Translations under genes and position numbers: made by a program
Assembly: GCF_000243135.2 (NCBI RefSeq)
Contig: NC_019903.1
Span: 1,464,001-1,528,000, forward strand
Direction of reading: 5' to 3'
Origin: Desulfitobacterium dichloroeliminans LMG P-21439
GTDB lineage: Bacteria > Bacillota > Desulfitobacteriia > Desulfitobacteriales > Desulfitobacteriaceae
Length of the DNA: 64,000 nt
The notes under the pieces: model-generated
What the model saw: only the letters and a program-made list of their open reading frames with translations
Database searches by the model: none
What the model was told of the DNA's origin: nothing
In this document: positions 23,261 through 40,746 of the stretch, piece after piece
Layout of the letters: every line of letters begins with the position of its first letter
Numbering within the stretch: the stretch's first letter is position 1

Positions 23261-24331
23261 TTATCTATTCTCGATTCCAACAATCATCAGTGAAGGATGT
23301 TCTACTAGGTTATAATCAATAGGCGAAAATAGGCGACTATAAAAATCATGAGTCATCCGCACATAAGGACGAGTTGGGAAGTTGGGATTTTGTTTTACCA
23401 CATTACCCCGTTGTCCGTTGCTTAAGCGGACTCCTGTCCCAGTGGGATAGGGAGTAATGCATTTAGGAAAGACCTTCTGCACTAATAATGGTTCAAAGAG
23501 CCAATCAGAATTGGCAATTAAATATTCATAAGCCTCATAGGGCTGATGGGCGTTGCGATAAATTCTTTTGCTGGTAAGTGCTTCATATACATCCGCAACA
23601 GCTGTTACTCTCGCATATTCATGGATTTGAGTTCCTTTTAACCCCCTCGGATAGCCGCTACCATCCCAGCGTTCCTGATGTTGAAGGGCTACATGAGCTG
23701 AGACAATATTGATATCACGGTTTTTTCGTAGAATCTGGAACCCGTATTCCGAATGCTTCTTGATCTCATCGAACTCCTCCAGCGTTAAAGGCCCCACTTT
23801 ATTGAAGATTTCTTCTGGAATCTTGATCTTTCCTACATCATGCATGAGTACACCCATTCCGAGCTCAAATAATTTATTATCTGACCAACCCATGGAAATC
23901 CCCATAAGTAAAGCAATAATCGTTGTATTTACAGAATGATGAAAGGTATAATCGTCATGCCCTTGAATCTCAATTATATTACCTAGTAATCCTTTGTTAT
24001 CAAGAAGGTCGCCGATGATATTTCGAACAGCATTCTTAACCCCATCCAACTTACCTGAACGAAGCCGTGACTCATCGATATTCTTACTTAAGTTAAGAAT
24101 AGCTGCGTAAGCAACTTCACGAGTCTTTAAGGACACAGCTGAAGTTATCTCAACATCTTCAAAAGTTGCATCCTCGATGAACATCGTATCTAAACCCAGG
24201 CGAGCTAATTTATCGATATAACTTCTTGATAGTGTTATTCCCGCCTGTAAAAGTACTTTGCCATTAGGTGCTATCAAAGGTCTTGCAAGCACAGAACCTT
24301 CAACTACATACGCAATATTCACCAAACGCAT
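23261..24331 (-). CDS. HD-GYP domain protein (probable cyclic-di-GMP phosphodiesterase)
   Basis: 356 residues. The N-terminal half has no recognised sensor domain. The HD-GYP core is complete in appearance: HHSVNTTIIALLMG, MHDVGKIKIPEEI, KKHSEYGFQIL, then LQHQERWDGSGYPRGLKG with the GYP signature. Soluble, no membrane segments. It should hydrolyse cyclic-di-GMP and counteract the GGDEF protein at 39.6 kb. Divergent from vanR across a 261-bp control region; a GGGG ribosome site precedes the ATG. Confidence 0.88.
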   Translation of the reverse strand: MRLVNIAYVVEGSVLARPLIAPNGKVLLQAGITLSRSYIDKLARLGLDTMFIEDATFEDVEITSAVSLKTREVAYAAILNLSKNIDESRLRSGKLDGVKNAVRNIIGDLLDNKGLLGNIIEIQGHDDYTFHHSVNTTIIALLMGISMGWSDNKLFELGMGVLMHDVGKIKIPEEIFNKVGPLTLEEFDEIKKHSEYGFQILRKNRDINIVSAHVALQHQERWDGSGYPRGLKGTQIHEYARVTAVADVYEALTSKRIYRNAHQPYEAYEYLIANSDWLFEPLLVQKVFPKCITPYPTGTGVRLSNGQRGNVVKQNPNFPTRPYVRMTHDFYSRLFSPIDYNLVEHPSLMIVGIENR

Positions 24332-24483
24332 TTATATTACCCCAGTTCAGTTTATAATAATTCCTTATAATGTTATAAATTTATAGTATATAGAAATTCG
24401 CCAAGAATTTCCCAAATCCTCTTGAAATTTGTAAACTATTGCAATTATTGTTTAAAAGGAGATTTACTCAAAGAGCACCAGAA

Positions 24484-24526
24484 CATTAAGTATTTCTTAA
24501 GATTTTCCTAAGCTAAAAACTATAAA
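24484..24526 (+). promoter_or_regulatory. VanR-type heptad array and promoter of vanRS
   Basis: Three TNNTAAG-like heptads at exact 11-bp spacing: CATTAAG (24484), TCTTAAG (24495), TCCTAAG (24506). A -10-like TATAAA follows at 24521-24526, 15 bp after the last heptad start; another possible -10 is TATAAT at 24547-24552. The spacing is that of an OmpR-class tandem site, and the sequences resemble VanR sites of the vanA system. Confidence 0.7.
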
Positions 24527-24592
24527 ATGGATTTTCTGCTTTGCGGTATAATAAGTATGGGGGTAAATGCTTAAAAGAAAGAAGATGACGTT

Positions 24593-25291
24593 TTGGCTGC
24601 CAATATTTTAGTGGTTGATGATGAACAAGCTATTGCGGATTTGGTTGAAGTTTATTTAAAAAATGAGAACTATAAAATCTTTAAATTTTATAAGGGCAGG
24701 GATGCCCTTAACTGTATAGAAAATGAAAAACTAGACCTTGCCATCTTGGATGTCATGCTACCGGATATTGATGGCTTTTCAATCTGTCAACAAATCCGAG
24801 AAAAGCATAATTTCCCCGTTATCATGCTGACCGCCAAAGAAGAAGAAATCGATAAGATTACCGGGCTGACCTTAGGGGCGGACGACTATATCACTAAGCC
24901 GTTTCGCCCTTTGGAGCTTATTGCCCGTGTGAAGGCACAGCTACGGCGATTTACAAAATATAATTCTACTGAGCAAAACAAGGATGAACACTTGATTGCC
25001 TTTTCCGGCTTGGTATTGGACATGGATACTCATGAATGTACCCTGAATGAGAAAAAGCTATCTCTCACCCCTACAGAGTTTGCCATTCTTTGGTTTCTTT
25101 GTTCCAATCGTGGACGGGTGGTTCGATCAGAAGAATTATTCCAAGAAGTATGGAGCGACAAGTATTTCACCAATAGCAATAATACGGTAATGGTTCATAT
25201 CCGACATTTGCGAGAAAAAATGGGCGATAATGCAGAACATCCTAAATATATCAAAACCGTATGGGGGGTTGGCTATAAAATTGAAAAGTAA
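24593..25291 (+). CDS. vanR: VanR-type response regulator (OmpR family)
   Basis: 232 residues, TTG start. Receiver domain with Asp9/Asp10, phosphoacceptor Asp53 (LAILDVMLPD) and Lys102 (DDYITKPF). The C-terminal OmpR winged helix ends YIKTVWGVGYKIEK, nearly as in VanR of vanA-type clusters. Phosphorylated by VanS, it should activate the van promoters. The heptad array upstream suggests autoregulation. Overlaps vanS by 23 bp. Confidence 0.9.
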   Translation: MAANILVVDDEQAIADLVEVYLKNENYKIFKFYKGRDALNCIENEKLDLAILDVMLPDIDGFSICQQIREKHNFPVIMLTAKEEEIDKITGLTLGADDYITKPFRPLELIARVKAQLRRFTKYNSTEQNKDEHLIAFSGLVLDMDTHECTLNEKKLSLTPTEFAILWFLCSNRGRVVRSEELFQEVWSDKYFTNSNNTVMVHIRHLREKMGDNAEHPKYIKTVWGVGYKIEK

Positions 25292-26411
25292 AAGCGATAT
25301 AAGAAAGAATGACTATTCGAGATTGAAAAGGAAAGTATTTGGGCAAATGCTTCTGATTACAATCGTTGCTGTCGTGTCTGTATTTCTTTTGCGCTTTCTT
25401 CTGTGGGGAGAGATCGGCAATCTTATCGTTAAAATGTTAATCAGCACGTTTCGTTTTCGAGATTGGGAGGCACATACAGTCTATCAGTTGATGATTCGTA
25501 ATAACTTAGATATGATTCTTTTTCTTGTAATCCTCATCTTCTTAGTTATCCTTTTTCGGTTTTCCGTTTCTTGGTTCACAAAATATTTTGATGAAATTAG
25601 CTCCGGCATGGATAAACTCACGGAGGGATCCGCTGCAGATATTACCTTAGCACCGGAATTGGATTTTATGGAGAAAAAGCTTAATCAGATAAAAGACAAC
25701 TTGGAAAAACAACAGAAAGCCGCCCTTGAGGCCGAGCAGCGCAAAAACGATTTAGTCGTTTACTTGGCTCATGATATAAAGACACCGCTGACCTCCGTTA
25801 TAGGCTACCTAAGTCTTCTGGATGAAGCTCCGGATATGCCTTCTGAACAGAAGGCGAAATACGTCGGTATTACCTTGGAAAAAGCTTATCGCTTAGAGCA
25901 GCTTATCAATGAGTTTTTTGAGATCACCAGATTTAATCTGCAAACTATTGTTTTAAGCAAAGAAGAAATCAAATTGCTGTTCATGCTCGAGCAGATGGCT
26001 GATGAATTCTATCCCATGCTGGCCCCCCAAGGAAAGCAGGTGACAGTTAAGGTGCCTGACGCTCTCACTCTGTGGGGAGATGCTGACAAGCTGGCCCGTG
26101 TGTTCAATAACATCCTGAAAAATGCGATAGCCTATAGCTATGAAGACAGCGTCATCGATATTTCCGCCAGGGAGCAGGATGAAGATATCGTAATAACGTT
26201 TACGAATCAAGGTAACCCTATCCCTCCAGAAAAACTGCAAACAATATTTGAGAAGTTTTTCCGGTTGGACACTTCTCGTTCTACCATTACAGGCGGTGCC
26301 GGGCTGGGACTGGCTATTGCCCAAGAAATCGTCAACGCCCATGGCGGCAATATTTTCGTACAAAGTAATTCCGAGAAGACTGTATTTACAGTCGTGCTTC
26401 CGCAGAAGTAA
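25269..26411 (+). CDS. vanS: VanS-type sensor histidine kinase
   Basis: 380 residues from TTG 25269, chosen because it gives the family N-terminus (AIKLKSKSD... KNDYSRLKRK) and follows GGGGGG. Two membrane segments (about 27-46 and 83-102) flank a short outer loop. The kinase core has LAHDIKTPLTSVIGYLSLLD (phospho-His168), NILKNA, and GGAGLGLAI. The core is strikingly like VanS of vanA/vanB-type systems. It senses glycopeptide or cell-wall stress and controls VanR. Confidence 0.9.
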   Translation: MAIKLKSKSDIRKNDYSRLKRKVFGQMLLITIVAVVSVFLLRFLLWGEIGNLIVKMLISTFRFRDWEAHTVYQLMIRNNLDMILFLVILIFLVILFRFSVSWFTKYFDEISSGMDKLTEGSAADITLAPELDFMEKKLNQIKDNLEKQQKAALEAEQRKNDLVVYLAHDIKTPLTSVIGYLSLLDEAPDMPSEQKAKYVGITLEKAYRLEQLINEFFEITRFNLQTIVLSKEEIKLLFMLEQMADEFYPMLAPQGKQVTVKVPDALTLWGDADKLARVFNNILKNAIAYSYEDSVIDISAREQDEDIVITFTNQGNPIPPEKLQTIFEKFFRLDTSRSTITGGAGLGLAIAQEIVNAHGGNIFVQSNSEKTVFTVVLPQK

Positions 26412-26414
26412 GCA

Positions 26415-26464
26415 AGGGGTGTCGCAAAACTACTTTTTTAAAGTAGCTTGCGATGCCCTTTTTA
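26415..26464 (+). terminator. Terminator after vanS
   Basis: GGGTGTCGCAA and TTGCGATGCCC, with an inner ACTACTTT/AAAGTAG stem, followed by CCTTTTT at about 26457-26463. Closes the vanRS transcript before the convergent VanZ-like gene. Confidence 0.75.
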
Positions 26465-26575
26465 GATTCGGTTTTTGAAGGAGAATCTTTTTAATACGAT
26501 TTCCATCAATAGGCCATTTCTTAGTGGGTTCTGTAGCCAAAAGTTACTCACTATCGTTTGGAGACAGAACCTTTC

Positions 26576-27304
26576 TTAAAAAATAAAGTACTTCAAAAAG
26601 GGATGGAGGAAAGGTCTTAAAAATGGGTAAAACACCAAAAACATACCGGCGTAGGCGCAGGCCAGATAGAACCATGCCTCTCCACGAAGGAGCAAGGGGG
26701 TTGTTTCAAGCTGGGTACTTTGGACAGCAACCTTGTCCTGTAATTTTGCTAAATGCTCATGCATCAGTCTGAAAATAAGCCAGCCGAGTACTGCTCCGAG
26801 AGTATTCATCAGTAAATCATCGATATCGGTTATTCTACTATTGAACAATTGGCTTAATTCTATGATCAAGGAGAATGCCAGACCGGATAATGCGGTTTGC
26901 CATAACACCTCATAATTTTTCCAAATACAGGGAAGAAGAAATCCAAGGGGAACAAAAAGCAACATATTCTCTATATAGGGGCGAACACCCTCCGACAGCC
27001 AAAAAAATGGAATCAGATTAATCTCTGTCGGTGGGAAACTAAATCCCCCAGCTGTTATTATGCCAAAGCTGTTCTGAAGAAGATCCTTTATGGAAGGAAT
27101 ACCCGTAAGGCTTAACACCCCAGCAAGGTAATACATAAAGATACAAACGATTCCCATATGTTCAATTGACAGTTTATAGCCCATCTTTTTACCCTGAGAG
27201 GTTAGTAGGAAATAGTAGGGGACCAAGAATGGCAAAGTACTAATAAACCAAGTAAGCGACGATATAATAATCCTTAAAATAAACATTAAAATCATACTGA
27301 TCAC
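26576..27304 (-). CDS. VanZ-like membrane protein
   Basis: 242 residues from GTG 27304, which has GGAGG 8 nt upstream; an earlier GTG sits on top of that ribosome site. Five or six membrane helices. The VanZ-family core is present: RPYIENMLLFVPLGFLLP, SLIIELSQLF, and RITDIDDLLMNTLGAVLGW. VanZ is linked to low-level teicoplanin resistance in vanA clusters; biochemical action is unclear. Transcribed toward vanS, away from the carboxypeptidase, with a shared control region full of heptads. Confidence 0.8.
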   Translation of the reverse strand: MISMILMFILRIIISSLTWFISTLPFLVPYYFLLTSQGKKMGYKLSIEHMGIVCIFMYYLAGVLSLTGIPSIKDLLQNSFGIITAGGFSFPPTEINLIPFFWLSEGVRPYIENMLLFVPLGFLLPCIWKNYEVLWQTALSGLAFSLIIELSQLFNSRITDIDDLLMNTLGAVLGWLIFRLMHEHLAKLQDKVAVQSTQLETTPLLLRGEAWFYLACAYAGMFLVFYPFLRPFLHPFLKYFIF

Positions 27305-27360
27305 GCAAGGCACCTCCGTTGTAATGACTTGTCTATTATAGGATATTAAAAAAAGTAATG

Positions 27361-27447
27361 CCTTAACAAAACCTTAAGATAGGGTGATTTTCTCCTTAAT
27401 TCGAAACTCCCGAGACCTTGATAAGACAATCTTAAGAAGTTCATAAG
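27361..27447 (+). promoter_or_regulatory. VanR-type heptad arrays upstream of the D,D-carboxypeptidase
   Basis: Three heptads at 11-bp spacing, TGATAAG (27419), TCTTAAG (27430), TCATAAG (27441), with a -10-like CAACAT about 16 bp after the last. A second pair, CCTTAAC (27361) and CCTTAAG (27372), also 11 bp apart, lies nearer the VanZ-like gene. VanR control of both flanking genes is plausible. Confidence 0.7.
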
Positions 27448-27516
27448 CTGAAATTCCAACATCGCTTCTTGTTCTGTGGTTGAATACTATCAGCAAAGAA
27501 TAAGGAGCTGTTAAAT

Positions 27517-28554
27517 ATGGTCCGAAAAGTAAGAAAGAAAAAGCAAGGAATACCCCTATCTAGGGCACTTCCTTTGCTGGTTATCATGGCTGCTATTGTT
27601 TATGGATTTATCTTGACTCCAGGAACCCCACCCATTTTTGAAGAGGAATATAACGATAAAACCTCGTCATATTCTTCTATAAAGTTAAGTCCTGATTCTT
27701 CTGAAGATAGAACAAGACCGGTTTCTCCGTCAAAGAGAAAAACCGATCCTGCTGTTTTCATATCTCCCAATAAGTTGAAAAGTCCTTGTGCGATTCTTGT
27801 TCGATTAAAGGATCATACCATTCAGCTAGACAATAGAAGCTCAGAAAAAGTCTATCCTGCTTCTTTAACTAAAATGATGACAGCCCTTGTGGCGATAGAA
27901 AATTTACCTAATCTGAAGGAAAAGATTAGACTAACCCATACTGCCTTTCAGGGAATGGACGAGGCAGATGCATCAATGGCTGGTTTCCAACCGGGTGAGC
28001 AGGTCAGGGCAATCGATCTGTTATATGGGGTAATGCTACCGAGTGGCGCGGAGTGCTGTATTGGACTTGCTGATCAGATTGCGGGATCAGAGCAGGATTT
28101 TGTTAAATTGATGAATCAGAAGGCGGCAGATATAGGTATGAAAAGTACCCATTTTGAAAATGCCACCGGGCTTCACCATGAAAACCACTATACAACAGTC
28201 AACGATCTGGCTATTCTCCTCAGCTATGCCTTGCAAAATGATACTTACCGAGAAATCTTTACTTCATCCCGTCATTCCATACCACCGACGAATAAGCACC
28301 CTGACGGGATAACCTTATACAGTACCCTATTTGAAGAACTCAACCATCAAGATATTAGGGGTGGAGAAATATCAGGAGGAAAAACGGGATATACCCAAGA
28401 GGCCGGCCTCTGTCTCGCGAGTCTCGCCCAAGTGGGTAAACAGGAATATATCCTGATTACAGCCGGTGCGCAAGGGGATCACTATTCAGAGCAGTATAAT
28501 TTTACCGATGCTTTAGCTGTGTACGGCAGCATTAGTTCGACGGCTATTGATTAA
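27517..28554 (+). CDS. Serine D,D-carboxypeptidase (peptidase S11, PBP type), VanY_D-like role
   Basis: 345 residues, AAGGAG ribosome site. An N-terminal membrane anchor (about 15-35) leads to the S11 fold: SLTK at Ser116-Lys119, the SxN position read as SGA (176-178), and KTG at 289-291 (SGGKTGYTQEAG). It removes the terminal D-Ala from peptidoglycan pentapeptides outside the cell. In vanD clusters VanY is of this penicillin-binding type rather than the zinc type. The VanR-like heptads upstream support a resistance role: trimming precursors that still end in D-Ala. Asparagine replaced by alanine in the SxN motif is seen in some S11 members and may affect activity. Confidence 0.82.
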   Translation: MVRKVRKKKQGIPLSRALPLLVIMAAIVYGFILTPGTPPIFEEEYNDKTSSYSSIKLSPDSSEDRTRPVSPSKRKTDPAVFISPNKLKSPCAILVRLKDHTIQLDNRSSEKVYPASLTKMMTALVAIENLPNLKEKIRLTHTAFQGMDEADASMAGFQPGEQVRAIDLLYGVMLPSGAECCIGLADQIAGSEQDFVKLMNQKAADIGMKSTHFENATGLHHENHYTTVNDLAILLSYALQNDTYREIFTSSRHSIPPTNKHPDGITLYSTLFEELNHQDIRGGEISGGKTGYTQEAGLCLASLAQVGKQEYILITAGAQGDHYSEQYNFTDALAVYGSISSTAID

Positions 28555-28556
28555 AG

Positions 28557-28579
28557 CAACACAAGTGTTGTTTTCTTCT
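28557..28579 (+). terminator. Short terminator after the carboxypeptidase
   Basis: CAACA (28557-28561) and TGTTG (28566-28570) form a small stem followed by TTTTCTTCT. Confidence 0.4.
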
Positions 28580-28673
28580 ATCTTATCAGCTGTGTTGACA
28601 GCAAAAGGCGATAAAAGAGTAAAAATTTGGTATAATCAAAAGGGGAGAATATAAAAATTAGGAAGGTGAGTCC

Positions 28674-29954
28674 ATGGGGCATATTACAAGTAAAGATGCC
28701 TATAAGAATTTAGAAGAAAGAATCAATTGGTTTACACATGGGGCGCCGCCCTCGGCCAGTTTGTATGCTATTTTGCAGGTTCTCTATACAGAAACTGAAG
28801 CCAGAAGGGTAGCACTATTGCCCGTTCGACCATTTACTGCAAAACAAGCAGCAAAGATTTGGTCTATCAGTGAAGGGAAAGCCGAAGCTTTCTTAGAGGG
28901 TCTTTGCCAGAAGGCGCTACTTGTGGACTCCTTTTATAACGGGGTACGTCAATTCGTCATGCCACCTCCCATGGCAGGGTTTATCGAATTTGCCTTGATG
29001 CGTACAAGAGGCGATATTGATCAGAAATATTTAAGTGAGCTGTATTATCAATATATGAATGTTGAAGAAGATTTTGTAAAGGACTTATTTTTCGCGACTG
29101 AGACGCGTCTGGGTCGAGTTTATGTGCAGGAGCCTATGTTGACGAATGCTAACACCATTCATATTTTGGACTATGAAAGAGCAAGCCATATTATTGAGGA
29201 TGCAACTCATATAGGCCTTGGAATGTGTTATTGCCGTCATAAGATGTCACATGTGGACCAACCCTGTGCAATAGATGCCCCTTGGGATGTTTGCCTCACC
29301 TTTGGCAATGTTGCTCGTTCCCTTGCCGAACATGGGCAGCATGCGAGATTAATTGATAGGCAAGAAGCTATGGATGTATTAGAACGTTCTTATGCAGCTA
29401 ATCTTGTGCAAATAGGTGAAAATGTTCGTGAAACCCCAGCGTTTATTTGCAATTGCTGCGGTTGTTGTTGTGAAGCCTTGCAAGCGGCCAGAAAATTTAG
29501 CCCCATGCAGCCAGTGGCTACGACCAATTACATACCGAAGATTTCGGAAGAATGCATAGGCTGTGGACAATGTGAAAAGGTATGTCCAGTATTAGCGATT
29601 TCCATGTCAAAGAACACAGAAGGCAAGAAGGTAGCTCAAGTAGATCATGAAGTATGCCTTGGCTGTGGTATTTGTGTGCGAAGCTGTTCTAGAAATTCCA
29701 TTGAATTAGTGCGAAGAGAGGTTCAAATCATTACACCAGTGAATAGTACCCACCGATTTGTCCTGCAAGCCATTGAAAAAGGAACTCTCCAAAATCTTAT
29801 CTTTGATAACCAGGCCTTTGCTAACCATCGTGCGATGGCTGCAGTACTTGGAGTTATTCTTAAATTACCGCCATTAAAGCAGATGGGGGCTAGCAAGCAG
29901 TTTAAATCCATTTATTTAGATAAAATGCTATCTAGTAAAAGTAAGCAAAATTGA
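28674..29954 (+). CDS. Ferredoxin-domain redox protein (two 4Fe-4S clusters), unknown function
   Basis: 426 residues; a GGAAGGTGAG site precedes the ATG and a -10 TATAAT lies at 28631-28636. The N-terminal half contains a winged-helix-like part and then GMCYCRHKMSH...PC and NCCGCCC, cysteine clusters typical of a family in anaerobic Firmicutes. At about residues 288-345 a classical dicluster ferredoxin follows: CIGCGQCEKVCP and CLGCGICVRSCS. Soluble. It may serve an electron-transfer branch; no partner reductase is adjacent. It interrupts the van locus, and I see no reason to assign it to resistance. Confidence 0.7.
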   Translation: MGHITSKDAYKNLEERINWFTHGAPPSASLYAILQVLYTETEARRVALLPVRPFTAKQAAKIWSISEGKAEAFLEGLCQKALLVDSFYNGVRQFVMPPPMAGFIEFALMRTRGDIDQKYLSELYYQYMNVEEDFVKDLFFATETRLGRVYVQEPMLTNANTIHILDYERASHIIEDATHIGLGMCYCRHKMSHVDQPCAIDAPWDVCLTFGNVARSLAEHGQHARLIDRQEAMDVLERSYAANLVQIGENVRETPAFICNCCGCCCEALQAARKFSPMQPVATTNYIPKISEECIGCGQCEKVCPVLAISMSKNTEGKKVAQVDHEVCLGCGICVRSCSRNSIELVRREVQIITPVNSTHRFVLQAIEKGTLQNLIFDNQAFANHRAMAAVLGVILKLPPLKQMGASKQFKSIYLDKMLSSKSKQN

Positions 29955-29970
29955 AAGGAACTCAATCATC

Positions 29971-30136
29971 TCATCATAAGAAATTAATAAGAATTTCATA
30001 AGGAAAATTCAAACATCACCTGTCTGATTTCGGTAAGATGAGATTGCCGAATCGGACAGGCTTCGATATGAAATACCAAGAAAACAAAGTGTTTAATCTG
30101 CGTCTTGCCGCGGAGCCCGTCAATGGTCTGATAATC
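29971..30136 (+). pseudogene. Relic of the vanW promoter region and an internal vanW segment
   Basis: 29971-30065 matches the vanW leader (34980-35073) including three VanR-type heptads; 30061-30136 matches vanW codons at 35283-35358. The join is at the 8-bp word ACAGGCTT, present at both 35066-35073 and 35278-35285 in the intact copy, so 212 bp have been removed between these repeats. Only a handful of mismatches and one indel separate the copies, so the duplication is recent. No start codon remains. Confidence 0.88.
29974..30002 (+). promoter_or_regulatory. Heptad array retained in the vanW relic
   Basis: TCATAAG (29974), TAATAAG (29985), TCATAAG (29996), 11-bp spacing, identical to part of the vanW array. 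It may still bind VanR. Confidence 0.6.
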
Positions 30137-30233
30137 TAGTTGTGCAAAGTTGCCGAGATAAGAATATGAAGGGGTATTTGCAGGCAGCAAAGAGATAAAG
30201 TGCTATTTGGCGGTAGACAAAGATGGAGAGTAG

Positions 30234-30311
30234 CCCTATTAGCTAATTATATAGATATTTATTGACAAATTAGCTAAAATATGAATAATAGTATGTAAAT
30301 AGCTAATAGGG
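30234..30311 (+). promoter_or_regulatory. Promoter with three TTAGCTAA boxes before the Phd-Uma2 gene
   Basis: TTAGCTAA occurs at 30239-30246 and 30270-30277, and ATAGCTAA at 30299-30306. The outer two are part of a 12-bp inverted repeat (CCCTATTAGCTA at 30234-30245, its complement at 30300-30311). A -35 TTGACA (30262-30267) with -10 near 30285-30291 lies between them. This is a typical autorepression layout, with the Phd-like N-terminal domain the likely binder. Confidence 0.65.
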
Positions 30312-30321
30312 GGGGATTATT

Positions 30322-31047
30322 CTGAGAGTTCCTTCGACAGAGGTCCAGAACAATTTTGGCAAATACTTAAAGTTTGTGGAGGTCAACGAAGAAATCATCG
30401 TGACCAAGAACGGCAGGGATATTGCCAGAATCCTGCCCTGTGATGACCCGAATAAAAGCCTTTTGGCGGAAGAGGCCGTGGACTATGAAACCCATGAGGG
30501 AAGGGTGACCTATGAAGAGTTTCTGGAACTGGTGGAGGCTTCCGATCAGCGGTTTGAGCTGATCGACGGCGTCATCTACAATCTGGCGTCCCCCTCATAC
30601 GAGCACCAATACGCCGTTCGCGAGATATTTGGTACGTTTTATAACTGGTTTAAACAGAAAAAGTGTATCCCCCTCACTTCGCCTTTTGATGTTACCCTTT
30701 TTAAAGCGCAGGACAACATCTGCGTTGTGCAGCCGGATATCATCATTATCTGTGACCAGGATAACATGGACAAAAAAGGGAAGTACAAAGGAGTCCCAAC
30801 TTTGGTGGTTGAAGTTCTTTCCAGGTCCACCAGAAGCAAGGATCTTCTGAAGAAGCTGGAGCTTTACCGGCAATGCGGAGTGAAGGAATATTGGATGGTT
30901 GATCCGAAAAATAAGCTGGTCAATGTTTATGTGTTTGATCAGAATGAAATATCTGACATCATAGCCTTTCAGAAAGGCGCCCATGAATATGTAGATTCAG
31001 TATGTTTCAATGGTTTGAAGGTCGCCTTGACGGATCTGTTTTTATAG
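30322..31047 (+). CDS. Phd/YefM-like antitoxin domain fused to a Uma2-family nuclease-like domain
   Basis: 241 residues if started at CTG 30322, the codon 6 nt after a GGGGGG ribosome site; the nearest conventional start (GTG 30376) would cut off half of a conserved domain. Residues 1-40 read RVPSTEVQNNFGKYLKFV...IIVTKNGRDIARI, a Phd/YefM antitoxin DNA-binding fold. From about residue 60 a Uma2 domain follows (FELIDGVIYN, SPFDVTLF, QPDIIIICD, VVEVLSRSTRSKD) with the PD-(D/E)xK-like residues. Uma2 proteins are widespread and poorly understood. The three TTAGCTAA boxes upstream fit autorepression. Confidence 0.75.
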   Translation: MRVPSTEVQNNFGKYLKFVEVNEEIIVTKNGRDIARILPCDDPNKSLLAEEAVDYETHEGRVTYEEFLELVEASDQRFELIDGVIYNLASPSYEHQYAVREIFGTFYNWFKQKKCIPLTSPFDVTLFKAQDNICVVQPDIIIICDQDNMDKKGKYKGVPTLVVEVLSRSTRSKDLLKKLELYRQCGVKEYWMVDPKNKLVNVYVFDQNEISDIIAFQKGAHEYVDSVCFNGLKVALTDLFL

Positions 31048-31371
31048 AAATTCCGTACAAATTCGCTAAAATCTTACCCAGTATATCCAGACCTTTGTGC
31101 AAAACCCAGGCAGTTGATGGGCGTCGAACGCTACCATCATCCAAAAATAAGAGCAAAAGAATTGTTCCAATAAGAAATTAAGTTTATAATGTTTTTGTGA
31201 TCTATGGCTGGAGGGCTAAGAGAATCGGATCATAAATAATAACTGAAGGAGCTGTTGTTTATGTTGAATAGAATAATGGATATTGTAATTAAGGGAGGGG
31301 TATACGAATAATCGAGTATAAACCTCCCATAAAGGCATGGTAGCAAGCAGCTTTTAGGAGGAAAATATAAA
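31048..31371 (+). other. Intergenic region before rsgA
   Basis: Contains the rsgA promoter and a tiny open frame (ATG 31261 to TAA 31311, 16 residues, MLNRIMDIVIKGGVYE) with AAGGAG upstream, which could be a leader peptide or chance. A GGGAGG/CCTCCC pair at about 31293-31328 could form a hairpin. Nothing else recognised. Confidence 0.35.
31162..31190 (+). promoter_or_regulatory. Sigma-A-type promoter upstream of rsgA
   Basis: -35 TTGTTC (31162-31167), 17-bp spacer, -10 TATAAT (31185-31190). Confidence 0.55.
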
Positions 31372-32451
31372 TTGAGTAAAATCGACATGGGAAATATCGG
31401 GCTCATTTCAAGGTTTGTGAATGAGGCTACACTATATGAGGGGCTGTATATTGGGAGAATAGCTTCTCAATCTAAAGGCCTCTATAAGGTTATAACCGAA
31501 AATGGTGAGTTAACCGCAGAGGTTTCAGGAAAGTTACGCTTTGATGCAAATACAGTATCAGATTACCCTGCCGTCGGCGATTTCGTCATGGTTGACAGAA
31601 ATCAAGATAGGGAAGGAAAGCCAATTATCCACCACGTTCTGACAAGAAAAAGTGTTTTTGTCAGAAAAGCTGCGGGGACATCCAATGCTGAACAAGTGGT
31701 GGCCGCCAATATTGATACAGTATTCATCTGTATGTCCCTTAATAATGATTTCAATGTTCGCAGAATTGAGCGTTACCTGGCGATTGCCTGGAACAGTGGG
31801 GCAATTCCGATTATCGTGCTTACCAAAGCCGATTTATGCCTTAATCTTCCTGAGAAATTGGCAGAGCTTGATTCTGTGGCGATGGGAGTAGATGTTGTTG
31901 TCACTTCCAGTATGAGTGAGGACGGTTATCTCTCGGTCAAAGGTTATATTGGCAGAGGAAAAACTATTGCCTTCATTGGCTCATCAGGTGTTGGGAAATC
32001 TACCCTGATCAATAGACTCATTGGTGAAGAGATTATTGAAACCAAGGGAATTAGAAATGATGACAAGGGAAGACATACCACCACCAGACGGGAGATGTTT
32101 ATTTTTCAGGATGGCGGAGTAGTTATTGATACCCCAGGAATGCGAGAAATCGGAATTGAAAGCGCCGATTTGTCAAAAACCTTTGCAGATGTTCATGAGC
32201 TATCTCAAAAATGCCGCTTTAGCGATTGCACCCATACCAATGAGCCAAACTGTGCCGTACTAGAGGCCATAAATTCCGGTTTCTTGGCAAAGGACAGATT
32301 CGAAAGCTATTTAAAACTCAAGAAAGAAATTAAGTATGATGGTTTGGACTCCCGGGAGATCGAAAATGTCAAGCTTAATGAAATGTTTAAAGAAATGGGT
32401 GGAATGAAGAATGCACGCAAGTTTTTAAAAGAGAAGAAGAAGTTTAAGTAA
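31372..32451 (+). CDS. rsgA: Ribosome small-subunit-dependent GTPase A
   Basis: 359 residues, TTG start with AGGAGG upstream. N-terminal OB-fold (about 20-90), then the circularly permuted GTPase: TKAD (151-154), P-loop GSSGVGKST (203-211), DTPGM (253-257), and a zinc site C281-x4-C286-x-H288-x5-C294. It checks maturation of the 30S subunit. The length is about 50 residues above the B. subtilis-type protein, mainly at both ends, as in a clostridial subgroup. Transcribed alone and ended by a strong terminator. Confidence 0.92.
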   Translation: MSKIDMGNIGLISRFVNEATLYEGLYIGRIASQSKGLYKVITENGELTAEVSGKLRFDANTVSDYPAVGDFVMVDRNQDREGKPIIHHVLTRKSVFVRKAAGTSNAEQVVAANIDTVFICMSLNNDFNVRRIERYLAIAWNSGAIPIIVLTKADLCLNLPEKLAELDSVAMGVDVVVTSSMSEDGYLSVKGYIGRGKTIAFIGSSGVGKSTLINRLIGEEIIETKGIRNDDKGRHTTTRREMFIFQDGGVVIDTPGMREIGIESADLSKTFADVHELSQKCRFSDCTHTNEPNCAVLEAINSGFLAKDRFESYLKLKKEIKYDGLDSREIENVKLNEMFKEMGGMKNARKFLKEKKKFK

Positions 32452-32494
32452 TTTAGCGTTGCAGAAATTATTGCTAACGAATAATTCAAATACT

Positions 32495-32540
32495 GCCCCG
32501 CTACCTGTCGGCTTGAGCCGATAGGTAGCGGGGCTTTTTT
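32495..32540 (+). terminator. Rho-independent terminator of rsgA
   Basis: 18-bp arms (32495-32512 and 32517-32534, one G-U pair), loop TTGA, followed by TTTTTT. Confidence 0.92.
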
Positions 32541-32774
32541 GGAGAATATAATTTGGTTGCTCGTCTCCTTCAGGGGCATGGATGATGCCCATGAACTGCT
32601 TTACTTACCTTAACTGGCGTTTGAATTCTTTGTACCAATGCGTTGCTAATCCGTGACGCAGATAATCAGTACTACAGAGTACCGGATTAAAAATATAACT
32701 GAATAGTGAAGGTGATAGTTTAGGCGGCTCATTAACATTTGTAACCATCTATTCAGTAAGAGTTATCTATTGAA

Positions 32775-33110
32775 TTAGCGACCAATCGTATTGTTTAACT
32801 TCGCACGATATTTTTCTTGCCAAGTTTTCGAGTCCTTTACTAGTTCATCGCAAAAAGCGGCAACGTCCTCACCCGTGAAGTCAGTGACTTTTTTTCCTTC
32901 TACTGCACATTCCTCTAAGAGGTCGAGAATACCTCCAAAGATACGGCTTATATCCTTCCAGTCGGTGAGGCCACCAGAGGTATATAGGTATTTCTTAATT
33001 GCGTCGTAAGCGTTACGGTACTCACTCGGAAGTGCCTTCGCACGCGCTTCCAGAGCCTTCCATTCCCGCTTGTCATCGAGACTTCCAATGATTTTCTCAA
33101 TAATATTCAT
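32775..33110 (-). CDS. DUF1048 family protein
   Basis: 111 residues, AAGGAG ribosome site. Sequence of the DUF1048 type: [29 protein letters not shown]...[12 protein letters not shown]. It is typically encoded after a PadR-family regulator, as here (17-bp gap). Function unknown. Confidence 0.82.
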
Positions 33111-33127
33111 ATTATTTCTCCTTTTGA

Positions 33128-33454
33128 TTAGATTTTATTTGCTTTAAGTTCGTTAATTTTGCTTGAGATGAAATCCCATTTTTCCCAAAAAATCTCTCGT
33201 TGTGCTTGACCTGCCGTGTTGAGTGTATAAAATTTTCTCGGCGGTCCCATAGTGGATGCTTTTTTCTCGATGTTCACCAGATTGTTTTTCTCAAGCCGCA
33301 TAGTAATCGTATAAACTGTGCCTTCGACGACATCAGTAAAGCCAAGTTCTCGTAGCAATTGTGTAATTTCATAGCCATAAGTTTCGCCACGGCCGATGAT
33401 TTCAAGCACACAACCCTCAAGCACCCCTTTCAACATTTCCGTAATCTTTTCCAT
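33128..33454 (-). CDS. PadR-family transcriptional regulator
   Basis: 108 residues, GGGGG ribosome site. The PadR winged helix is clear: [42 protein letters not shown], and [13 protein letters not shown]. It has the short PadR C-terminus. Expected to repress its own operon with the DUF1048 gene. The upstream sequence is rich in TACT/AGTA words (33535-33560) that could be the operator. Confidence 0.88.
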
Positions 33455-33793
33455 TTTGCCACCCCCTTTTGTTGTCTATAGGTCTATTCAGTATTCTGTA
33501 GCACAGGTATTTAGCGTTATGGGTAATTGGTATTACGTACTACTGGTATATAGTATAACGGAATAGACTCGGTGTCAAGAATTGATGATGGCTAAGACTT
33601 GTTTAAAAACTTGACATGAAACCGAACTTCTGCCAAAAATGTGGTGGTCGTATTGTAGGGGTGAAATAAGTTTTTCAATTGAGGAAAGAAAAAGTAGGAG
33701 GTTTATTTAGGGAAATAATAGAATTTATTGTTAATAGAATGCTATAATGTTATGAATTAACACTCTAGGCTTATTTATGCTGGGGGTACATAG
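33455..33793. other. Intergenic region between padR and the broken diguanylate cyclase
   Basis: Holds both divergent promoters. A very short open frame at 33616-33669 (MKPNFCQKCGGRIVGVK) resembles the start of a zinc-ribbon protein and is probably a relic. Confidence 0.35.
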
Positions 33794-34897
33794 ATGGATG
33801 AGAACAAGAAATATGCAATATCATTATTTGGTGAATTTGTCGATAAATCTACGGAAAATGAATTCTTAGAACATAGTATGAACAGCTACTCAAAATCGAT
33901 AGGCGTTGTGGCGCTGATTTTTGGTCTTATCTCAATGCTCTTTCTATCTACCGATTATTATGATGTCGCAAGACCCATTTCATTTTTAATTATTACAGCG
34001 CTTAGGGTCTTTTTCCTTATTGCTTCAATAGCCATTTTCTTTATCGCCAAGCAAGAAACCAAATTTACAGGTTTCATTTATCTTATAACTGTGTATGAGT
34101 CCATTGCAGCTCTAACATTTCTTCTAATATTAGGACAATATGATAGCCTTAGTTACTTAAGTGTTTTAAGTCTAATGGCAGTTACCTTAGCCATATATAT
34201 CCTACCTAATAAAATGAAGTTTTGTCAGCTTATCTCAATCGCTATGAGCCTACTGTTTTTTCTTTACCCTGGGCAAAAAATTGAAGGTCTCGTTGAATAT
34301 GATTTGTATAAGCTTATGGCATATCAGAGTATTTTGTTGACTTACTGCAATATAAATTCCAGTCTTACCAACTCCTATAAAAGAAAACAATTTACGGGAA
34401 GTAAAGAGCTACTAGCCTTATCTGTAACGGATCCCTTAACAGGTATTTATAACAGGACGAAGTTTGATGAAGAAGTCGATCGGTGGATGAATTTCTCTCA
34501 TAGATAGGGCAACCCTCTTTCTTTAGCTATCCTTGATATAGATGATTTTAAAAAGGTAAATGATAGCTATGGACATCTGGTGGGGGATAGCGTTATTAAA
34601 AAGATTGTCACCATAATCAAAAGGTCATTACGCAATACAGATGTATTTGCTAGATGGGGAGGAGAGGAGTTCGTGATTCTACTTCCGAATACAGAAGTGC
34701 GGCACGCAGGAGAAATGGCTGAACGAATGCGACTATGTATACTAAATGATCTGATTGAAACGGACATGATTATCAGCTGTAGTTTTGGTATAGCAATACT
34801 AAATGAGGGAGACACGGCACAATCACTACTGAATAGGGCAGATGGTCTGCTTTTACAAGCAAAAGCCAGTGGGAAGAATAGAGTTGTGATTCAATAA
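33794..34897 (+). pseudogene. Membrane diguanylate cyclase gene with an in-frame amber codon
   Basis: 367 codons in one frame, interrupted only by TAG at 34505-34507 (codon 238). Upstream: about six membrane helices, then the beginning of the GGDEF domain (LSVTDPLTGIYNRTKFDEEV). Downstream in the same frame: GNPLSLAILDIDDFKKVND, an I-site RNTD, and the active site GGEEF near codon 289. In relatives this position is often Tyr before G-[NH]-P-L-S, so TAT to TAG is the likely change. Translation would stop before the active site unless the codon is read through. Confidence 0.85.
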
Positions 34898-34971
34898 GTA
34901 AGGTGGGAAGTTTAACATGGAGATTGAGGTATAGAGAACGTAGTATTATTTATTAAGTAATTTTAGAATAG

Positions 34972-35026
34972 GAATAAGGTCATCATAAGAAATTAATAAG
35001 AATTTCATAAGGGAAAGTTCAAACAT
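34972..35026 (+). promoter_or_regulatory. VanR-type heptad array upstream of vanW-ligase-vanX
   Basis: Four heptads at exact 11-bp spacing: GAATAAG (34972), TCATAAG (34983), TAATAAG (34994), TCATAAG (35005); AAACAT at 35021-35026 sits where the -10 does in the other arrays. TCATAAGAAATT here differs by one base from the VanR site known from the vanA system (T-C-G-T-A-A-G-A-A-A-T-T). Confidence 0.72.
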
Positions 35027-35028
35027 CA

Positions 35029-35078
35029 CCTGTCTGATTTCGGTAAGATGAGATTGCCGAATCGGACAGGCTTTTTTA
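35029..35078 (+). terminator. Terminator-like hairpin between the vanW promoter and vanW
   Basis: CCTGTC...GATTTCGG pairs with CCGAATC...GACAGG (35066-35070 end), followed by CTTTTTTATT. It sits only 20 bp before the vanW start, so it could attenuate the operon or stop transcripts arriving from the diguanylate cyclase gene. Confidence 0.65.
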
Positions 35079-35097
35079 TTCCGGAAAGGGGTCCAAC

Positions 35098-35937
35098 ATG
35101 AAAAGAAAAAGGGTTACACAGTTGTTTCCATTTTTAATACCGGTCCGCAAGACACAAAGAAAATTATTCTTTTATATCAAGATGTACTTTGATCGAAACC
35201 ACTATGCAAAAGCAAAATCTCCAGAGTTTTTACCTTATAGCATCTATGAAACCAAGTCGAAACTTCTTAATGAAAACACAGGCTTCGATATGAAATACCA
35301 AGAAAACAAGGTGTTTAATCTGCGTCTTGCCGCGGAGCCCGTCAATGGTCTGATAATCCGCCCTGGTGAAACATTTTCATTTTGGCAGGTTGTGAGATAT
35401 GCCGAGAGAAATGAGCGGTATAAGTATGGTTTGTGCGTAGTCAATGATGAATTGATCACGGTGCCGGGAGGCGGTTTGTGTCATCTCAGCAATTTGCTGT
35501 TCTGGGTGTTTCTGCATGTTCCCCTCACTATTGTCGAACGGCATCCTCATGGGATTAAGGATTTTCCTTCTCCTGATGAGGATGAACCGGATAGTGTGGA
35601 CGCGACGATTAACGAAGGGTGGTTGGATTTGAAAGTAAGAAACAATACCAGTCTTACCTTCCAGATTGAAATATCCTTCGATGAGTCTTTCATTTATGGC
35701 CGTATTTTTGTGGATCAAGCCGAAGGGTATAGTTACGAAGTCATTAACCGAGATAAGAGTTTTTTTAAAAAGGGTGGAAAGACCTTTGAGCGGGTTTCTG
35801 TTTGCAGGCAGGTGATAGACAACAAATCCCAACAGGTTATTTCCGAAAACCTGCTTTATACGGATATATTTGAAATCGGATATGCGCTTCCAGAAGGAAC
35901 TGTTATAGAAGGTGAAGAGGATGGATACGATGATTAA
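35098..35937 (+). CDS. vanW: VanW-family protein
   Basis: 279 residues; ATG after GGAAAGGGG. Close to VanW of vanB operons: MKRKRVTQLFPFLIPVRK, FDMKYQENKVFNL, GETFSFW, GGGLCHLSNLLFW, ERHPHGIKDFP. The function of VanW is not established. It is the first gene of the ligase-VanX unit; vanB operons have vanH between vanW and the ligase, but here the ligase follows after 28 bp. Confidence 0.9.
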   Translation: MKRKRVTQLFPFLIPVRKTQRKLFFYIKMYFDRNHYAKAKSPEFLPYSIYETKSKLLNENTGFDMKYQENKVFNLRLAAEPVNGLIIRPGETFSFWQVVRYAERNERYKYGLCVVNDELITVPGGGLCHLSNLLFWVFLHVPLTIVERHPHGIKDFPSPDEDEPDSVDATINEGWLDLKVRNNTSLTFQIEISFDESFIYGRIFVDQAEGYSYEVINRDKSFFKKGGKTFERVSVCRQVIDNKSQQVISENLLYTDIFEIGYALPEGTVIEGEEDGYDD

Positions 35938-35965
35938 TTCCTCAAACATGAAAGGAGAAAGCAGT

Positions 35966-37006
35966 ATGAATCGATTGAAAATCGCCATTATCTTCGGAGG
36001 TTGTTCTGAAGAACATTCCGTTTCCGTTAAATCTGCCCAAGAGGTCGCTAAAAACCTTGATCTCGAAAAGTATGAGCCCTACTATATCGGAATTACGCAA
36101 AATGGTGTCTGGAAGCTTTGTCACTTCCCTGAAGCAAATTGGGAAAATAGTTGTTGTCTTCCGGCTATGCTGGCACCGGACAGTGGGGTACACGGCTTGA
36201 TTGTTTTGGAGCAGGGAAAATACAAGATGATACCTTTGGATATGGTGTTTCCTGTTCTGCATGGCAAATTTGGCGAGGATGGTGCCATACAAGGTTTGTT
36301 GGAGCTTTCCTGCATCCCATATGTAGGCTGCGATATCCAAAGTTCTGCTCTGTCTATGGACAAATCCCTTGCTTATATCGTCGCCGGAAACGCGAGAATT
36401 GCGACCCCGAATTTCTGGACGTTTACGGAGAACGAGGATATGGACCCCGACCGGTTTATTTACCCCGTTTTTGTTAAGCCGGCCCGTTCGGGGTCATCTT
36501 TTGGGGTTACTAAGGTATGCCGAGAAGAAGAATTGCTAAGTGCGGTGGAAATCGCCAGACAGTATGATTCGAAGGTGCTGATTGAAGAGGCTGTCGTCGG
36601 TAGTGAGGTAGGATGTGCGATATTTGGGGACGATCCGGATTTGACTGCAGGAGAAGTAGATCAAATTTCACTATCGCATGGTTTTTTTAGAATCCATCAG
36701 GAGAGTGAGCCTGAAAACGGTTCCGAAAACTCAACAATCATCGTTCCCGCTGATATTTCGACGGAGATGCGCTTGCATATCCAGGAGACGGCTAAAGCCA
36801 TCTATCGTGCTTTGGGATGCAGGGGACTGGCGCGAGTGGATATGTTTCTGAAGGAAGATGGGGAAGTAATTCTAAACGAGGTAAATACGTTGCCTGGAAT
36901 GACCTCGTACAGCCGTTTTCCGAGAATGATGGCAGCCGCAGGGCTAACTTTTGCCGAAGTGATCGACCGAATCGTTGCATTAACCTTGGAAGGGAAAAGA
37001 CGATGA
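35966..37006 (+). CDS. D-alanine-D-lactate ligase, VanA/VanB type
   Basis: 346 residues from ATG 35966 (AAAGGAG 8 nt upstream). Closely follows VanA and VanB: GGCSEEHSVSVKSA, LHGKFGEDGAIQG, VGCDIQSSA, FVKPARSGSSFGV, and the omega loop FRIHQESEPENGSEN with His244, the residue that favours D-lactate over D-alanine. The D-Ser ligase signature is absent. It makes D-Ala-D-Lac for peptidoglycan precursors with low vancomycin affinity. Whether to name it vanA-, vanB- or another vanX-class requires phylogeny, so no symbol is given. Confidence 0.9.
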   Translation: MNRLKIAIIFGGCSEEHSVSVKSAQEVAKNLDLEKYEPYYIGITQNGVWKLCHFPEANWENSCCLPAMLAPDSGVHGLIVLEQGKYKMIPLDMVFPVLHGKFGEDGAIQGLLELSCIPYVGCDIQSSALSMDKSLAYIVAGNARIATPNFWTFTENEDMDPDRFIYPVFVKPARSGSSFGVTKVCREEELLSAVEIARQYDSKVLIEEAVVGSEVGCAIFGDDPDLTAGEVDQISLSHGFFRIHQESEPENGSENSTIIVPADISTEMRLHIQETAKAIYRALGCRGLARVDMFLKEDGEVILNEVNTLPGMTSYSRFPRMMAAAGLTFAEVIDRIVALTLEGKRR

Positions 37007-37611
37007 ACAATGGTTTTGCCTATGTCGACGAGTTTGTATCCGGAATACGTTGGGATGCAAAATACGCCACTTGGGATAACTTCACCGGCAAGCCGGTGGA
37101 CGGGTATGAAGCTAACCGAATTGTCGGTACGAGAGCATTGTGCGCGGCCCTGAAAATAGCACGGAAAAACGCCGCATCCTTGGGCTTTGGCCTGCTCCTT
37201 TGGGATGGTTATCGCCCGCAATGTGCCGTAGATAGTTTTCTGCGCTGGTCAAAACAGCCGGAAGATGGCCGGATGAAGCGAAAACACTATCCCAATATTC
37301 ACAGAGCCGAGATAGTTGAAAAAGGATATGTGGCCGCCAAGTCGGGACATAGTCGGGGTAGCACAATAGATTTGACGCTTTATCACTTAGCTGACGGTTC
37401 ACTTGTGCCAATGGGCGGTGACTTTGATTTGATGGATTCTGTCTCACATCATGGAGCAAAAGGAGTTACGGAAGTCGAAACGAGAAACCGTCAATTCCTG
37501 TGTTCGATCATGGAGACAGGTGGTTTTGTTCCCTACGATTGCGAGTGGTGGCATTACACCCTGAAACACGAACCTTATCCCAACACATATTTTGACTTTC
37601 CCATCACCTAG
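37003..37611 (+). CDS. vanX: VanX D-Ala-D-Ala dipeptidase
   Basis: 202 residues from ATG 37003, overlapping the ligase stop by 4 bp. All catalytic residues sit at the numbers known for VanX: Arg71 (WDGYRP), zinc ligands His116, Asp123 (SGHSRGSTIDLT) and His184, and Glu181 (EWWHY). This zinc dipeptidase destroys host-made D-Ala-D-Ala so that D-Ala-D-Lac is used instead. Cytoplasmic, no signal. Confidence 0.93.
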   Translation: MNNGFAYVDEFVSGIRWDAKYATWDNFTGKPVDGYEANRIVGTRALCAALKIARKNAASLGFGLLLWDGYRPQCAVDSFLRWSKQPEDGRMKRKHYPNIHRAEIVEKGYVAAKSGHSRGSTIDLTLYHLADGSLVPMGGDFDLMDSVSHHGAKGVTEVETRNRQFLCSIMETGGFVPYDCEWWHYTLKHEPYPNTYFDFPIT

Positions 37612-37718
37612 TTGTTTCTTCTCTTTGCCATTTTAATCAAGTTATTTCTTTGTTATAATAAGGAAAATGATAACAATTCTGTAATGATAGAATGGATGGA
37701 GAAATCGGGGATAATATC

Positions 37719-38882
37719 ATGGAAAATAAGTTAGTGAATTTAAAAACTACCATTATGCTGGGCTCCTTTGCTTTCGGTATAATGTCTTTTCTTTTGCCTA
37801 TCTATGCTAAAAGTATCGGTAGTGATGCAATTAGTATCGGAGGTTTGTTTTCAATATTTAGTCTCGTGACCTTATTATTAAGGCCTATAATTGGGAAAGC
37901 AATAGACCGTTATGGGGGGAAAAATTTCTTAGTTTTAGCGTTTGTATTTTATGCAATTTCAATGGTGCTTTTTTCTTACTCTAATAGTATTTTTCTTCTA
38001 TATATTAGTAGGTTAATTCAAGCAATAGGGTCATCGCTCATGTGGATTCCTGCTTACACTATAGCTATGGATATGGCTGATAATAAAAAAAGGGGGAATG
38101 CTATCGGTCAGGTAGATGGAGCTAGTGCCAAAGGAGCATTGTATGGAGCTATTATAGGATTTGTTTTTTTGACTTATCTTGGCTTTGTTAGCGGGTGGAG
38201 CACCATATTTAAAGTGTATGCTGTTTTGGCAATAGTGGCAGGGTATATCGCATTTAAGCATCTACCAGAAACAAAAATAGTTAAGCAGGAAGATATTTCA
38301 CTAACGATTAATAAATTCAATTCTAACTTTTACAAGCTACTAAGCATAGTCTTTTTCAGCTCAATTTCAATATCAATGTTAACCCCTCTCTTGATGATTT
38401 ATCTCCAGGATAAGTTTACAACTGATATTCAAACATTAGCATTTGCATTTATTCCGGCAGCTCTCGTATATTCGTTTTTACCGTCTAAATTGGGCGCAAT
38501 CAGTGATAAATTTGGCAGAATAACGCCTATGGCTATAGGGTTAATAGGTTCAGGTATAGTTTCTTTAGGCTTTACACATTTTTCTAGTCTTAAAATATTA
38601 ATTGTACTATGGGTTTTGGAGGCCATAGGGATAACTATGGCTTCTCCAGCGCAAGAAGCATTAGTCGCAGATATTGTAGGCGAAAATATTCGGGGTTCTG
38701 CGTATGGTTGGTATTTATTTATAGCAAGTTTAGGTGCATCGGTTGGCCCTCTGCTTGGCGGTTTCTTATATGATTATTTTGGACATTCTATTCCGTTCTA
38801 TTTAAATGGTATTATTTTATTACTTGATGCTTTCTTGGTAATAGTGTTATTCAAAAACTTAAAACGTCCAGCGAAAAACTAA
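37719..38882 (+). CDS. MFS transporter
   Basis: 387 residues from ATG 37719 (GGGG about 8 nt upstream); ATG 37692 lacks a ribosome site. Twelve predicted membrane segments, with the loop 2-3 motif GKAIDRYGGKNFLV and its weaker second-half copy SKLGAISDKFGRITP. Belongs to the drug/sugar exporter-like part of the superfamily; the substrate is unknown. It stands alone 107 bp after vanX and has no VanR-type array of its own. Confidence 0.85.
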   Translation: MENKLVNLKTTIMLGSFAFGIMSFLLPIYAKSIGSDAISIGGLFSIFSLVTLLLRPIIGKAIDRYGGKNFLVLAFVFYAISMVLFSYSNSIFLLYISRLIQAIGSSLMWIPAYTIAMDMADNKKRGNAIGQVDGASAKGALYGAIIGFVFLTYLGFVSGWSTIFKVYAVLAIVAGYIAFKHLPETKIVKQEDISLTINKFNSNFYKLLSIVFFSSISISMLTPLLMIYLQDKFTTDIQTLAFAFIPAALVYSFLPSKLGAISDKFGRITPMAIGLIGSGIVSLGFTHFSSLKILIVLWVLEAIGITMASPAQEALVADIVGENIRGSAYGWYLFIASLGASVGPLLGGFLYDYFGHSIPFYLNGIILLLDAFLVIVLFKNLKRPAKN

Positions 38883-38884
38883 CG

Positions 38885-38908
38885 AATGGCGGCCCAAAGG
38901 CCGCCATT
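38885..38908. terminator. Perfect hairpin between convergent MFS and XRE genes
   Basis: AATGGCGGCC (38885-38894) and GGCCGCCATT (38899-38908) around CAAA. T-runs are poor, but the placement between convergent genes suggests a bidirectional terminator. Confidence 0.55.
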
Positions 38909-38946
38909 AAATTGTGGGAGGGGATATGAAGATGGATTATTAGTCC

Positions 38947-39264
38947 TTATCGAGCAAAGTAAAGAAGAGCAAAATTCTTGATAAAGCGGACATCCTCCGG
39001 ATCCTTGCTCATCAATATCTGTACGAGTTCCTTCAATTCACCGTCAATTTCATTATTATCAGAGAGCATGAGTGCGCCTGTCAAACCCAAAACTTCGGAA
39101 ATCTTAGCAATCATCTGCACAGAGGGAGTCTTTAAGCCGTTTTCCAATTGGCTGATATAACCGACACTGACCAATATCTCTTCGGCAAGTTTTTCCTGTG
39201 TATATCCTCTTAAAAGTCGATATCTTTTTAAATTATTGCCTATTTCCCGCGCTATCTGCTCCAT
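38947..39264 (-). CDS. XRE-family helix-turn-helix regulator
   Basis: 105 residues from ATG 39264 with AAGGAG 8 nt upstream. HTH_3: LKRYRLLRGYTQEKLAEEILVSVGYISQLENGLKTPSVQMIAKISEVLG. A short helical C-terminus follows. Target unknown; convergent with the MFS gene and divergent from the GGDEF gene. Confidence 0.88.
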   Translation of the reverse strand: MEQIAREIGNNLKRYRLLRGYTQEKLAEEILVSVGYISQLENGLKTPSVQMIAKISEVLGLTGALMLSDNNEIDGELKELVQILMSKDPEDVRFIKNFALLYFAR

Positions 39265-39555
39265 TGCATAATCTCCTTTTGACAATTTTGCAAGTTCGTT
39301 TTTTAGAAACAACACTTCCAGGATCAAGCTATCAGGTATTAAGGAAATTATGGTTAATTAATTTTAGTATAAACTACTAGCTTTAGTTTGTTAAGTAAAA
39401 TCTTACTTGTAGCTTATGTCGGATTTGAAAAATATGGTGTATATTGATTAATAATGATGAGAGAACTCGAATATTCGGAAATCCTACGGTATTTACTCAA
39501 CGGTCATTCTGTAGGGAATGATTGGTATCGTTATTATTTAATAAGGAGTAGAGAT

Positions 39556-40650: not shown

Positions 40651-40746
40651 CGGTATAGGTTATTTTGCATCCCCTAAAATTCTTTCTTTTTCGCGATAGA
40701 CATGTTGTATAATAGTATAGAAAGAGGATTAGGGAGGAAAAGGAAG

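Follow-up and report, generated by a model that had tools for sequence, protein, structure and literature searches.

Why does a fragment of vanW, still preceded by a VanR-type array, lie 5 kb before the intact vanW gene of Desulfitobacterium dichloroeliminans LMG P-21439, and is it a dead duplicate or a working element? The genome is a single contig of 3,624,449 bp, and the window analyzed here is a 64-kb stretch of it (positions 1464001-1528000). An expanded 5S rRNA match in this genome ends at 2241816 on the minus strand, in agreement with the coordinate published for strain LMG P-21439, NC_019903.1 (PMC7812874). The gene order is vanR-vanS, vanZ, a vanY-like gene, a ferredoxin-like gene, the relic, a 4.8-kb block and vanW-vanI-vanX, while murF and vanK were not found in the window. 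In window coordinates, the relic and the van features around it are:

24593..26411, plus strand: vanR and vanS, both above NCBIfam cut-offs
27419..27516, plus strand: VanR-type array and promoter, preceding the gene of a vanY-like S11 carboxypeptidase (27517-28554)
29971..30136, plus strand: vanW relic, i.e., VanR array (3 units), leader and vanW codons 61-87, then a new TAG at 30137-30139
34974..35097, plus strand: intact vanW promoter and leader, with a VanR array of at least 4 units, dyad, T-tract and ribosome-binding site
35098..35937, plus strand: intact vanW, the parent of the relic (NCBIfam vanW-gen, 463 bits, cut-off 365)
35966..37006, plus strand: vanI, D-Ala-D-Lac ligase (NF000372, 752.8 bits, cut-off 700), single copy in the genome
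37003..37611, plus strand: vanX, D-Ala-D-Ala dipeptidase (386.8 bits, cut-off 320)

The locus is a vanI cluster by its genes, with a vanI-type D-Ala-D-Lac ligase, vanX and VanRS all above NCBIfam cut-offs. It has the same vanI ligase, vanW, vanX, vanR and vanS as the clusters of D. hafniense and Desulfosporosinus (PMC4229326). Protein identity to D. hafniense-like and Desulfosporosinus-like loci is 73-91% for most products and, depending on the query, 65-91% for vanX.

The parentage of the relic is read directly from an alignment of 29940-30200 with 34940-35420, complemented by a repeat search. The VanR array and leader of the intact copy (34980-35073) align to 29971-30063 with 97.9% identity (one 1-bp gap and one A/G difference), and vanW codons 61-87 (35278-35358) align to 30056-30136 with 98.8% identity (one silent A/G difference). 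The 64-kb window contains ACAGGCTT at three places (30056, 35066 and 35278), and the two occurrences in the intact copy are spaced by 212 bp (35278-35066), the exact length of the piece missing from the relic. The original prediction had described the relic as the vanW leader and an internal part of vanW minus 212 bp, lost at an 8-bp direct repeat that borders this piece on either side in the intact copy; this description proved exact, the retained part of vanW being codons 61-87 only.

30056..30063, plus strand: ACAGGCTT deletion junction, with parents at 35066 and 35278

Two repeats in the parent and a single one in the relic are the signature of a short-homology or slipped-strand deletion. 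If every deletion of 50-329 bp that the 378-bp parent allows is considered, 0.03% have terminal homology of 8 bp or more; the observed deletion has 8, and an incidental repeat is thus very unlikely. Chance is excluded as the origin of the match (E-value of 3e-82 for the whole relic, 1.6e-39 and 1.1e-34 by block), and with the relic as query the whole genome returned only the relic itself and the two blocks of the intact copy. The deletion removed the T-tract, the ribosome-binding site, the start codon and vanW codons 1-60, and the relic therefore cannot make VanW. Its coding remainder reads TGFDMKYQENKVFNLRLAAEPVNGLII up to the in-frame TAG and has neither start nor ribosome-binding site, as expected for a vanW pseudogene arising from a partial duplicate. 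The adjacent sequence (30137-30225) had no meaningful match in the nine genomes searched. A search of the plasmid collection gave no match.

With a probability of roughly 0.78, the relic has no function and is what remains of a recent duplication limited to the 5′ end of vanW. The duplicated piece, about 378 bp long, would have comprised the VanR array, the leader and vanW codons 1-87; we infer that the copy later lost 212 bp by slipped-strand or another short-homology deletion between the ACAGGCTT at the base of the leader hairpin and that in codons 61-63. Since VanR sites and a -10-like element survive, VanR~P may still bind and might even initiate a short transcript that is not translated; no useful product would be expected from it. 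The exact geometry, the 8-bp end homology, the near identity of the copies with changes on both branches, the new in-frame TAG after codon 87, the missing ribosome-binding site, the decay of the neighborhood and the comparable relics of relatives all count for a dead relic, while the retention of the best half-sites and of the -10-like element in the surviving array counts against it.

Over about 175 aligned positions, relic and intact copy differ by two substitutions and one 1-bp indel. Judged by the relatives, the 1-bp loss and an AAA codon are derived in the relic and AAAG is derived in the intact copy. Only one of the 81 coding bases differs between the two copies, as compared to 9-18 to relatives, which indicates that the duplication, or a later conversion, is recent. 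The same conclusion, already drawn from near identity in the original prediction, follows from a divergence of about 1.7% between the copies as opposed to about 11-20% to other species over the same stretches.

The extent of the duplication is smaller than first supposed. Only the array, the leader and the first 87 vanW codons are seen twice. On the left, homology stops inside the array, where the intact copy continues with a further unit and the relic does not, and on the right it stops at vanW codon 87. Furthermore, vanI is single-copy, the other match in the genome being a 37% ligase, and no vanI or vanX sequence follows the relic. A duplication of the whole van locus, as initially proposed, is consequently not shown, and a complete second van operon is rejected, given the single vanI and the absence of vanI and vanX after the relic.

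This arrangement is compatible both with a partial duplication followed by deletions and with integration of the 4.8-kb block through a single crossover. The second scenario bears on the origin of the relic only, not on its function: the 4.8-kb block (30137-34979) would have arrived together with a 5′ fragment of vanW on a circular DNA, whose integration by a single crossover would have left a 3′-truncated copy on the left and a full gene on the right. The order of truncated copy, foreign block and full gene is the one expected, and the RsgA paralogue and GGDEF gene of the block are without close relatives in the genus genomes searched. However, it is the right-hand copy that has the fuller array, and on the left the break falls within the array; in addition, no terminal repeats of the block were seen and no integrase was identified among its genes, which makes such an integration rather unlikely. 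A comparison with an empty site through the ferredoxin-like gene brought out relatives that share this gene only and neither flank.

The array and leader kept by the relic are:

29974..30008, plus strand: relic VanR-type array, TCATAAGAAATT / TAATAAGAATTT / TCATAAGGAAAA, period 11, third unit 1 bp shorter than in the intact copy
30019..30061, plus strand: relic leader dyad, CCTGTCTGATTTCGG-N13-CCGAATCGGACAGG, with a -10-like TAAGAT between the arms; the T-tract of the intact copy is lost

The published VanR consensus consists of 12-bp direct repeats, (T/C)CGTANGAAA(T/A)T, in the promoters of the vanA and vanG operons (PMC4405338). The three units of the relic match it at 11/12, 9/12 and 9/12 positions and lie, as in VanR-regulated promoters, upstream of the -35 position. 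Because a 9/12 match is common by itself (521 in the window, both strands), the evidence for VanR sites resides in the tandem 11-bp register and its recurrence: the 27-bp three-unit pattern, with at most 3 mismatches, has 5 matches in the genome and its reversed control has none, and related arrays in relatives precede a vanY-like gene, vanX, vanW, vanI and vanS. The original assignment of the array to VanR is thereby supported, as a prediction from consensus match and repeated use upstream of van genes. The arrays resemble the VanR-activated vanA and vanG promoters in having direct repeats upstream of a poor -35, with a best unit of 11/12, but these predicted sites differ from them by a period of 11, an ATAAG core and a leader dyad around the -10-like element. 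Weak array matches at L073 and L039 lie beside other genes, and no dehydrogenase that could stand for the missing vanH was recognized there by eye.

The relic hairpin is unchanged (-25 kcal/mol, z about -5). A leader with TAAGAT inside the dyad was found in 6 of the 47 genomes searched; five of these have a vanI-type vanW or its relics and the sixth (G017) has vanR-S and a vanY-like gene. No such dyad was found in viral contigs, and an Rfam search of 23500-41000 returned no family. Paired bases occupy 93% of cells in a covariation test of the hairpin, but covariation does not exceed that of shuffles, so an RNA structure of the leader is not proven. The TAAGAT of vanW, vanX and vanI leaders lies within a conserved terminator-like hairpin followed by a T-tract (window 35029-35080; L040, L044, L041, L038 and L067). 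Read-through from upstream would form this hairpin, while a transcript started at TAAGAT would be devoid of the 5′ arm. The van promoter could thereby be shielded from upstream transcription.

Four relatives (L038, L041, L067 and L110) carry vanW leaders that are orphaned or truncated, indicating that vanW has repeatedly been lost while its leader persisted, in a set of loci retrieved by vanW, array or leader queries and thus favoring surviving leaders. As in D. dichloroeliminans, array and leader survive and vanW is deleted internally or nearly wholly; the break points differ, and in L038 and L041 an ABC-transporter operon follows. In L038, nine vanW-like codons (MERKRMTQL) remain behind array and leader before this operon; in L041, array and leader are followed there by an ATG and a stretch resembling the vanW end. 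These two cases show that a vanW-type leader can outlive its gene at a place where it could work, and to that extent they count against a dead relic. In L067, vanW codons 1-28 are joined to codons 222-270, a leader runs directly into the terminal portion of vanX, and a small piece of vanW is present as well; vanI was not found in the L067 stretch examined. In L110, vanR-S and a vanY-like gene are followed by an orphan leader. Since vanW leaders without intact vanW occur several times in the group, the presence of a VanR array does not guarantee that a van gene follows, and other genes may have come under vancomycin control through some of these arrays.

The ABC-transporter operon behind the vanW leader is conserved in three loci (L038 8240-8480 and L041 16290-16520, with vanW deleted; L044 9875-10845, where array and intact vanW stand directly before the operon). 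This operon may be under VanR control.

Could the relic likewise act on the DNA to its right, as the original prediction suggested? The gene that follows is:

30234..31047, plus strand: Phd-Uma2 fusion gene, with its own operator dyad and promoter TTGACA-16-AATAAT, and CTG for ATG

The relic would then be a live VanR-controlled promoter captured by this gene or by an untranslated RNA. Its VanR sites and TAAGAT are intact, the T-tract that would end read-through is deleted, and in relatives the leader fronts the ABC-transporter operon (L038, L041) or vanI (L044), so that such a leader could in principle drive the genes to its right. Nevertheless, homology of the Phd-Uma2 gene to two D. hafniense-like copies elsewhere begins at its own operator dyad, giving it a near-consensus promoter common to all three; its start position (30322) is CTG, whereas both homologues have ATG; about 180 bp without a plausible gene lie in between; and the spacing from array to -10 is 1 bp shorter in the relic than in aligned relatives. 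An in-frame TAG (34505-34507) also interrupts the otherwise open diguanylate cyclase (GGDEF) gene before vanW (33794-34897), and together with the CTG it fits weak selection on this stretch. It is therefore improbable that the relic serves as a useful promoter; most likely it is dead, and VanR may bind it but unproductively. It is equally doubtful that array and leader form a promoter module repeatedly detached from vanW and reused in vanI-type clusters, of which the relic would be a still firing example placing rightward DNA under vancomycin control.

It was also proposed that the array titrates VanR as a decoy. Three half-sites indeed remain, but one extra site per chromosome is little compared to the other arrays of the cluster and nothing shows selection for the relic, making this role very improbable. 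Finally, an assembly artefact has a negligible chance, for even with one assembly of the species compared, the genome is complete in a single contig, the junctions are unique on both sides, and the private changes directly seen on both branches mean that the relic did not arise by duplication of the intact gene during assembly.

By itself, the relic is an ordinary decayed duplicate. Strain DCA1 is presumably the one deposited as LMG P-21439. The genome of LMG P-21439 carries an intact-looking vanI with vanW, vanX, vanR and vanS, although a PCR survey scored D. dichloroeliminans DCA1 as vanI-negative, its MIC being listed as not determined (PMC4229326).

Decay and rearrangement were also observed at other van loci. 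The cluster at L067 9560-12140 is decayed, with internal deletions in vanW and in a vanY-like gene and a vanX fragment behind the vanW leader, while the vanR and vanK reading frames are full-length. In Desulfosporosinus lacus (L040 15350-15575), vanS is immediately preceded by a VanR array and leader, and no vanR was found in the stretch. In another relative (L042), fragments of vanS, vanZ and a vanY-like gene (6811-7328 and 10334-10576) lie beside vanW-I-X genes.
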